From NCBI GenBank assembly GCA_916048095.2, contig OU696579.1, forward strand, positions 9,600,169-9,664,168: a stretch of 64,000 nt of DNA. The letters run 5' to 3'. Both the position numbers and the translations under genes were made by a program. The notes beneath the pieces were generated by a model. That model saw only the letters and a program-made list of their open reading frames with translations. It did not search any database and was not told the origin of the DNA. Origin of the DNA: Sacculina carcini. Lineage: Eukaryota > Arthropoda > Thecostraca > Sacculinidae. Shown piece after piece: positions 1 through 56,950 of the stretch (position 1 is its first letter; each line of letters starts with the position of its first letter).

Positions 1-594
1 CACTTAGGTAACACTTAGGTAACACTTAGGTAACACTTAGGTAACACTTAGGTAACACTTAGGTAACACTTAGGTAACACTTAGGTAACACTTAGGTAAC
101 ACTTAGGGCACACTTAGGTAACACTTAGGGCACACTTAGGTAACACTTAGGTAACACTTAGGGCACACTTAGGTAACACTTAGGGCACACTTAGGGCACA
201 CTTAGGCAACACTTAGGTAACACTTAGGTAACACTTAGGTAACACTTAGGTAACACTTGGGTAACACTTAGGGCATACTTAGGTAACACTTAGGGCACAC
301 TTAGGTAACACTTAGGGCACACTTAGGTAACACTTAGGTAACACTTAGGTAACACTTAGGTAACACTTAGGTAACACTTAGGTAACACTTAGGTAACACT
401 TAGGTAACACTTAGGTAACACTTAGGGCACACTTAGGTAACACTTAGGGCACACTTAGGTAACACTTAGGTAACACTTAGGGCACACTTAGGTAACACTT
501 AGGGCACACTTAGGTAACACTTAGGGCACACTTAGGGCACACTTAGGTAACACTTAGGTAACACTTAGGTAACACTTAGGTAACACTTAGGTAA

Positions 595-3500
595 CACTTA
601 GGTAACACTTAGGTAACACTTAGGGCATACTTAGGTAACACTTAGGGCACACTTAGGTAACACTTAGGTAACACTTAGGTAACACTTAGGTAACACTTAG
701 GTAACACTTAGGGCACACTTAGGTAACACTTAGGGCACACTTAGGTAACACTTAGGTAACACTTAGGGCACACTTAGGTAACACTTAGGGCACACTTAGG
801 TAACACTTAGGGCACACTTAGGGCACACTTAGGTAACACTTAGGTAACACTTAGGTAACACTTAGGTAACACTTAGGTAACACTTTGGGCACACTTGGGT
901 AACACTTTGGGCACACTTAGGTAACACTTAGGGCACACTTAGGTAACACTTAGGTAATACTTAGGTAACACTTAGGGCACACTTAGGTAACACTTAGGTA
1001 ACACTTAGGTAATACTTAGGTAACACTTAGGGCACACTTAGGTAACACTTAGGTAACTTAGGTAACACTTAGGGCACACTTAGGTAACACTTAGGGCACA
1101 CTTAGGTAACACTTAGGTAACACTTAGGTAACACTTAGGTAACACTTAGGTAACACTTAGGTAACACTTAGGGCATACTTAGGTAACACTTAGGTAACAC
1201 TTAGGTAACTTAGGTAACACTTAGGGCACACTTAGGGCACACTTAGGTAACACTTAGGTAACACTTAGGGCACACTTAGGTAACACTTTGGGCACACTTG
1301 GGTAACACTTTGGGCACACTTAGGTAACACTTAGGGCACACTTAGGTAACACTTAGGTAATACTTAGGTAACACTTAGGGCACACTTAGGTAACACTTAG
1401 GTAACACTTAGGTAATACTTAGGTAACACTTAGGGCACACTTAGGTAACACTTAGGTAACTTAGGTAACACTTAGGGCACACTGAGGTAACACTTAGGGC
1501 ACACTTAGGTAACACTTAGGTAACACTTAGGTAACACTTAGGTAACACTTAGGTAACACTTAGGTAACACTTAGGGCACACTTAGGTAACACTTTGGGCA
1601 CACTTGGGTAACACTTTGGGCACACTTAGGTAACACTTAGGGCACACTTAGGTAACACTTAGGTAACACTTAGGTAACACTTAGGTAACACTTAGGTAAC
1701 TTAGGTAACACTTAGGGCACACTTAGGTAACACTTAGGTAACACTTAGGTAACACTTAGGTAACACTTAGGTAACACTTAGGTAACACTTAGGTAACACT
1801 TAGGTAACACTTAGGTAACACTTAGGTAACACTTAGGTAACACTTAGGGCACACTTAGGTAACACTTAGGGCACACTTAGGTAACACTTAGGTAACACTT
1901 AGGGCACACTTAGGTAACACTTAGGGCACACTTAGGGCACACTTAGGCAACACTTAGGTAACACTTAGGTAACACTTAGGTAACACTTAGGTAACACTTG
2001 GGTAACACTTAGGGCATACTTAGGTAACACTTAGGGCACACTTAGGTAACACTTAGGGCACACTTAGGTAACACTTAGGTAACACTTAGGTAACACTTAG
2101 GTAACACTTAGGTAACACTTAGGTAACACTTAGGTAACACTTAGGTAACACTTAGGTAACACTTAGGGCACACTTAGGTAACACTTAGGGCACACTTAGG
2201 TAACACTTAGGTAACACTTAGGGCACACTTAGGTAACACTTAGGGCACACTTAGGTAACACTTAGGGCACACTTAGGGCACACTTAGGTAACACTTAGGT
2301 AACACTTAGGTAACACTTAGGTAACACTTAGGTAACACTTAGGTAACACTTAGGTAACACTTAGGGCATACTTAGGTAACACTTAGGGCACACTTAGGTA
2401 ACACTTAGGTAACACTTAGGTAACACTTAGGTAACACTTAGGTAACACTTAGGGCACACTTAGGTAACACTTAGGGCACACTTAGGTAACACTTAGGTAA
2501 CACTTAGGGCACACTTAGGTAACACTTAGGGCACACTTAGGTAACACTTAGGGCACACTTAGGGCACACTTAGGCAACACTTAGGTAACACTTAGGTAAC
2601 ACTTAGGTAACACTTAGGTAACACTTGGGTAACACTTAGGGCATACTTAGGTAACACTTAGGTAACACTTAGGTAACTTAGGTAACACTTAGGGCACACT
2701 TAGGGCACACTTAGGTAACACTTAGGTAACACTTAGGGCACACTTAGGTAACACTTAGGTAACACTTAGGTAACACTTAGGTAACACTTAGGGCACACTT
2801 AGGTAACACTTAGGGCACACTTAGGTAACACTTAGGTAACACTTAGGGCACACTTAGGTAACACTTAGGGCACACTTAGGTAACACTTAGGGCACACTTA
2901 GGGCACACTTAGGCAACACTTAGGTAACACTTAGGTAACACTTAGGTAACACTTAGGTAACACTTAGGTAACACTTAGGGCACACTTAGGTAACACTTAG
3001 GGCACACTTAGGTAACACTTAGGTAACACTTAGGGCACACTTAGGTAACACTTAGGGCACACTTAGGGCACACTTAGGCAACACTTAGGTAACACTTAGG
3101 TAACACTTAGGTAACACTTAGGTAACACTTGGGTAACACTTAGGGCATACTTAGGTAACACTTAGGGCACACTTAGGTAACACTTTGGGCACACTTAGGT
3201 AACACTTAGGGCACACTTAGGTAACACTTAGGTAACACTTAGGGCACACTTAGGTAACACTTGGGGCACACTTAGGGCACACTTAGGTAACACTTAGGTA
3301 ACACTTGGGTAACACTTAGGTAACACTTAGGGCACACTTAGGTAACACTTAGGGCACACTTAGGTAACACTTAGGAAACACTTAGGTAACACTTAGGTAA
3401 CACTTAGGTAACTTAGGTAACACTTAGGGCACACTTAGGGCACACTTAGGTAACACTTAGGTAACACTTAGGGCACACTTAGGTAACACTTTGGGCACAC

Positions 3501-56833: not shown

Positions 56834-56932
56834 CACTTAGGGCACACTTAGGTAACACTTAGGGCACACTTAGGTAACACTTAGGTAACACTTAGGGCAC
56901 ACTTAGGTAACACTTAGGTAACACTTAGGTAA

Positions 56933-56950
56933 CACTTAGGTAAGGTTAGG
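56933..56950 (+). other. Satellite-to-telomere junction
   Basis: The last satellite unit is CACTTAGGTAA at 56933-56943. It is followed directly by GG and then perfect TTAGG units from 56946, so 56941-56945 reads TAAGG, one base different from TTAGG. No retrotransposon, filler or unique sequence lies between the arrays. The change from 11-bp to 5-bp repeat is complete within one unit. This is what would be expected if telomerase had extended a broken or eroded end lying within the satellite, the 3' A being followed by GG as in a normal TTA-GG step. That mechanism is inference; the sequence shows only the abrupt join. Confidence 0.95.

Follow-up and report, generated by a model that had tools for sequence, protein, structure and literature searches.

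A probable subtelomeric minisatellite with kilobase block duplications beside an uninterrupted stretch of TTAGG telomere in Sacculina carcini

Chromosome ends in several organisms carry repeats that resemble the telomere motif without being identical to it. In the earwig Labia minor, TTCAGTT and TTCGGTT repeats are reported beside a TTCGG telomere, and the accessible text of the same paper cites near-telomeric repeats as a known feature of subtelomeres (PMC11829193); degenerate stretches of telomere sequence in subtelomeres are covered in a review (PMC9693754, in its accessible part). The distal telomere of the honeybee is described as having an inner variant zone with a TCAGGCTGGG repeat (PMC6454739). 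A different kind of precedent comes from yeast, where, according to the accessible part of the report, CEB1 and CEB25, two minisatellites of human origin, received telomeres internally after being put into a chromosome. In 24 of 27 cases the CEB1 junction had two or more letters in common with the telomere, and CEB25 acts in an orientation-dependent way that requires Cdc13 sites (PMC3486850).

Here we describe one chromosome end of the thecostracan Sacculina carcini, seen in one window (the whole stretch of DNA analysed, 64,000 nucleotides), in which a long array of an 11-bp unit runs directly into a terminal array of TTAGG. TTAGG is not unique to arthropods. The telomere side is recognized by its TTAGG repeats, which point outward to position 64000; that position may or may not be the end of the molecule itself. 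We interpret the inner array as probably a subtelomeric minisatellite, one that internal recombination has amplified and homogenised and that ends in an ordinary TTAGG telomere made by telomerase. This explanation takes in four things seen directly in the window: the unit, the one direction in which it points, the duplicated blocks, and the abrupt, in-register junction. As in a subtelomeric satellite or minisatellite, the array is long and head-to-tail, lies directly inside the terminal telomere array, and is homogenised with higher-order blocks. The main features, in order along the window, are as follows.

1..56943, forward strand: array of the 11-bp unit, consensus CACTTAGGTAA, completely tiled and in one orientation, continuing past the left window edge.
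56936..56945, forward strand: junction, where the last unit's TTAGG is followed by TAAGG; both words keep to the telomere's 5-bp register, the single mismatch being at 56942.
56946..64000, forward strand: terminal (TTAGG)n, 7,055 bp within the window, with mismatches only at 58271 and 63111.

The sequence-only reading had described the inner region as a gene-free, 11-bp tandem array at 1..56943, some 57 kb long, whose unit contains TTAGG in the orientation of the real telomere. Tandem Repeats Finder returns the same interval with period 11, 5191 copies, 87% matches, and the consensus given above. In our own parse, where a unit begins at ACTT, ACTG or, once 22-bp intervals are split, two related words, bases 2-56933 are tiled completely by 5,190 units, followed by a last unit that the telomere cuts. 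Every base of the parsed array belongs to a unit, with no interrupting element between them, and none of the window's six reading frames stays free of stops for more than 24 codons. The word CCTAA has zero occurrences in 1-56943, so the TTAGG words of the array all share the direction of the terminal TTAGG. The array, its freedom from genes, and its orientation are thus borne out; the length has to be restated as a lower bound, because the array begins at the window edge, and TTAGG belongs to the consensus and to 4,731 of the 5,190 units but is absent from 459.

The units show little diversity. Most (5,111) are 11 bp long and 79 are 9 bp, and they fall into 24 kinds, of which ACTTAGGTAAC has 3,115 copies and ACTTAGGGCAC has 1,277; the 21 rarer 11-bp kinds lie one or two letters away from one or other of these. 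The 9-bp kind, ACTTAGGTA, is missing two letters, and on the unit map its 79 copies appear repeatedly in what look like the same few surroundings, as the descendants of a few old deletions would. The longer word TTAGGT is present in 3,275 of the 5,190 units. Another word, TTGGG, is carried by 393 units, which belong to three kinds; it is described as a telomere variant in the honeybee (PMC6454739), and the title of PMC12564400 names it as a lacewing telomere motif. No composition gradient runs along the array, the ten commonest kinds being nearly equal from tenth to tenth.

The telomere is far more uniform. Tandem Repeats Finder assigns 56936-64000 a period of 5, the motif TTAGG, and 99% matches; the first 1.3 kb of the telomere are without a deviating base, and two of its 7,055 bases deviate overall. 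The telomere touches the right window edge, so that 7,055 bp is a lower bound. Its two changed bases and the lack of an inserted element in 56946-64000 contrast with the interrupted telomeres described for most insects. Retroelements of the TRAS/SART type within TTAGG are likewise lacking in 56946-64000, part of a telomere that may extend past the window; the sequence-only reading had set this end apart from the retrotransposon-rich TTAGG telomeres described in the silk moth.

The change from array to telomere is abrupt—it falls within a unit and in register with the TTAGG of that unit. Words in telomere register follow one another across the junction (TTAGG at 56936, TAAGG at 56941, and TTAGG at 56946), and over its final 8 bp (56936-56943) the array already keeps the phase of the telomere; an in-register junction would arise without seeding by a chance of 1 in 5. 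With the cut unit taken as whole, the last eight units before the junction recur at four interior sites, where the array continues, and this recurrence is weakly suggestive of truncation; the last nine units have no interior match in the array. Some ten units before the junction, at 56824, stands the singleton unit ACTTAGGTTAC, which has eight letters in common with the telomere, as against six for the commonest unit.

Where the unit itself came from is a separate matter. The sequence-only reading had suggested an amplified telomere derivative, and the reading that follows from it is that the unit descended from an old (TTAGG)n stretch, which would have mutated, settled into an 11-bp period, and then been amplified. 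Such a descent is plausible on the letters of the unit, if only tentatively so; as a proposal on origin, it does not conflict with the minisatellite explanation. The commonest unit shares the six-letter word TTAGGT with the telomere on the right strand, and the second commonest shares five letters. We judged this sharing against 200,000 random circular 11-mers compared with (TTAGG)n. At least five letters are shared on the same strand by 4.0% of them, and at least six by 0.97% on the same strand and 1.96% on either strand; the six-letter figures become 0.94% and 2.26% at the base composition of the unit, and 0.70% and 1.82% for permutations of its own letters. Chance sharing of about 1% (one strand) or 2% (either strand) therefore suggests ancestry, while leaving room for coincidence. 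The contact of the array with the telomere, in register, speaks for descent as well, as does the earwig example, in which the subtelomeres of L. minor are reported to be rich in slightly altered telomere motifs (PMC11829193).

Other properties of the unit pull against descent. Its best ungapped same-strand match with the telomere is 7/11, which 11% of 20,000 random units also attain. The array lacks the strand bias of a telomere: its GC skew is 0.017, that of the telomere 1.0. The 24 kinds include no common intermediate toward the telomere, the singleton at 56824 being one change closer. Nor is the TTAGG core spared: of the substitutions that define the 21 rarer 11-bp kinds, 14/25 fall in the five TTAGG positions and 11/25 in the six others, and the probability of so few or fewer core changes is 0.90 (a test that takes the two commonest kinds as parents and leaves out the 9-bp kind, with 25 changes that are not all independent). 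With 14 of the 25 changes inside it, the core gives no sign of sparing, and the proposal that it was protected from mutation is unsupported. What stands of the earlier suggestion is the setting—a gene-free, uninterrupted array that adjoins at least 7,055 bp of TTAGG and shares its orientation—and what falls short is descent itself, given a six-letter sharing expected about 1% of the time and a core that is not spared.

An unrelated satellite, sitting at this chromosome end and holding TTAGG by coincidence, would draw on the same observations. It is a doubtful reading, but by no means a far-fetched one: a match this good occurs by chance at the rates just given for one strand and for either, and the core is conserved no more than the linker. 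Against this reading, the direction of the array, its immediate adjacency to the telomere, and the shared register all agree in pointing to a telomere link.

The array also repeats itself on the scale of kilobases, as four stretches of the forward strand illustrate.

1082..6964, forward strand: copy one of a 5,883-bp duplication, the longest exact one inside the array.
7444..13326, forward strand: second copy of this duplication, at an offset of 6,362 bp.
10529..13533, forward strand: exact block of 3,005 bp, repeated at 18779-21783 (offset 8,250).
40133..42517, forward strand: exact block of 2,385 bp, repeated at 51114-53498 (offset 10,981).

The first 5,883-bp copy sits within a longer block, 572-6964 (6,393 bp), which shows a single mismatch. 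Among direct repeats that are exact and have an offset of 300 bp or more, those of 1 kb or longer account for 46,790 of the 56,935 array bases (82%), and lowering the length limit to 300 bp raises the figure to 56,010 (98%). Cover is uneven, which counts against the minisatellite explanation: for the 1-kb class it is lowest in the telomere-side sixth of the array, at 0.64 versus 0.77 to 0.93 elsewhere. The longest repeated string of units runs to 535, versus 17-22 in 20 shuffles of the units and no more than 48 in any of 40 simulated Markov sequences, ten for each of the orders 1, 2, 3, and 5. When 56 consecutive 1-kb segments are compared with the rest of the array, best ungapped identity has a mean of 0.985 and a minimum of 0.817, with 3/56 below 0.88, a further sign of unevenness. 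Block offsets are additive (6,362 + 8,250 = 14,612; 14,852 + 10,981 = 25,833; 8,250 + 15,488 = 23,738), which is the expected outcome of nested duplications. At the other end of the scale, self-identity is 0.901 at a 22-bp shift and 0.866 at 11 bp, and the units therefore form a loose 22-bp dimer.

Copies of a block differ very little. After edge trimming, the 25,165 bases compared across seven selected block pairs show 10 differences, and these represent 7 distinct sites, as three of the changes are met in two comparisons; 16 block pairs left untrimmed have 6 to 10 mismatches each, mostly at the edges. So few differences between copies point to recent turnover. With 24 kinds among 5,190 units, and 5 of these kinds singletons, most variants have been copied along with their surroundings. 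The long exact direct repeats therefore argue for growth of the array by the copying of kilobase blocks, and not by telomerase addition of 11-mers. Judged by these repeats, the array is renewed by in-register copying of long blocks, with a turnover that is fast relative to point mutation. Three processes fit block copying equally, and the sequence cannot tell them apart: unequal exchange, gene conversion, and break-induced replication.

Some of this structure could instead stem from the assembly—a real array to which wrong block duplications or a wrong length have been given—and we consider this quite unlikely. Tandem arrays of this type are difficult to assemble; the longest exact duplication is, however, 5,883 bp, a length that usual long reads exceed, and four of the seven trimmed block pairs carry one to four differences, the other three carrying none. 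It is highly improbable that telomerase once made the 11-mer or makes it as an alternative motif: for insects, telomere motifs between 1 and 11 nucleotides long are reported (PMC12036569) and the unit contains the telomere core, but the two main kinds are interspersed and variant strings of kilobase length are exactly shared, as would be unexpected from templated addition, the unit is without G-strand bias (skew 0.017), and the present cap is TTAGG.

Under the minisatellite explanation, blocks of about 2 to 6 kb would be copied in register via unequal exchange and/or break-induced replication. The array would at some point have been cut back within a unit, and telomerase, or else telomere capture or strand invasion, would then have used the TTAGG of that unit as the seed for the present cap. 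A truncated-and-healed array of this sort offers the simplest account of the junction. The putative role of the array is most likely passive, that of an expendable, recombinogenic buffer between the telomere and the genes. A more active role, with the array as a landing strip on which telomeres are repaired and which recombination keeps regrowing, strikes us as rather unlikely. TTAGG would then be offered on the outgoing strand in nine of ten units, about once per helical turn; with seeds so dense, nearly any break across tens of kilobases would leave a 3' end near a seed, and a lost telomere could be rebuilt without loss of genes. Were this true, the TTAGG cap should begin at differing units across chromosome ends, individuals, and cells, always in the TTAGG register.

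Telomere-like subtelomeric repeats are already known, and in this respect the array is a fairly ordinary chromosome-end repeat. The particular 11-bp unit did not turn up in print in the string searches made: all 11 forward and 4/11 reverse-complement rotations of the commonest unit, with three strings of the second, did not reveal it in a literature library that is without most subscription papers. Among the matches listed, judged by title and the opening of the abstract, none seemed to concern satellites or repeats of chromosome ends except one on human telomere length and a receptor gene, which has one 11-letter match (PMC11677240). A combined search of the same library for an 11-bp subtelomeric satellite with TTAGG in a chromosome-level genome gave no paper, and exact unit patterns gave 0 stretches in prokaryote and viral contig collections, a result that says little about arthropods. 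The S. carcini end is a clear example of a subtelomere made from one very short repeat, refreshed by kilobase block copying, and adjoining an unbroken stretch of TTAGG.

Among the systems introduced above, L. minor resembles this end in having short repeats, near to the telomere motif, that border the telomere; it differs in its unit and in its telomere motif, and no long fixed-unit array or kilobase blocks are described in the accessible text (PMC11829193). The honeybee shares a TTAGG telomere with longer derived repeats on the inner side; its variants are, however, reported within the first 2 kb of the telomere, fading outward, beyond a relatively conserved 3-kb subtelomere (PMC6454739), whereas the S. 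carcini end has an abrupt change, no inner variant zone, and an inner array of at least 57 kb. Subtelomeric interstitial telomeric sequences, as reviewed in PMC9693754, are similarly head-to-tail and subterminal and contain telomere words, and the orientation of the terminal telomere is also kept here. In contrast to these, telomere repeats do not stand in tandem at the telomere period in the array, which has a fixed 11-bp unit with a 6-bp linker, a 7/11 similarity, and strong homogenisation; neither does it look like a telomerase-made motif, which should show G-strand bias and variants unshared in long strings. The PaB6 satellite of Prospero autumnale likewise holds intact telomere motifs within its unit, but it is a pericentric plant satellite of 249 bp with seven telomere repeats per unit, according to the accessible text (PMC4273535).

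The likeness to CEB1 and CEB25 depends on the seed reading: if that reading is right, both cases involve telomere addition in an array that shares letters with the telomere (PMC3486850). The yeast case is an experiment, acting for CEB25 via Cdc13 binding sites, whereas the S. carcini array is known from sequence. The yeast case may serve as a precedent for the working mode and not as evidence of membership. If the units do not act as seeds, the array adds one more description to those on record for chromosome ends in arthropods; if they do, it would be a natural, testable counterpart to the telomere addition reported for minisatellites in yeast (PMC3486850).
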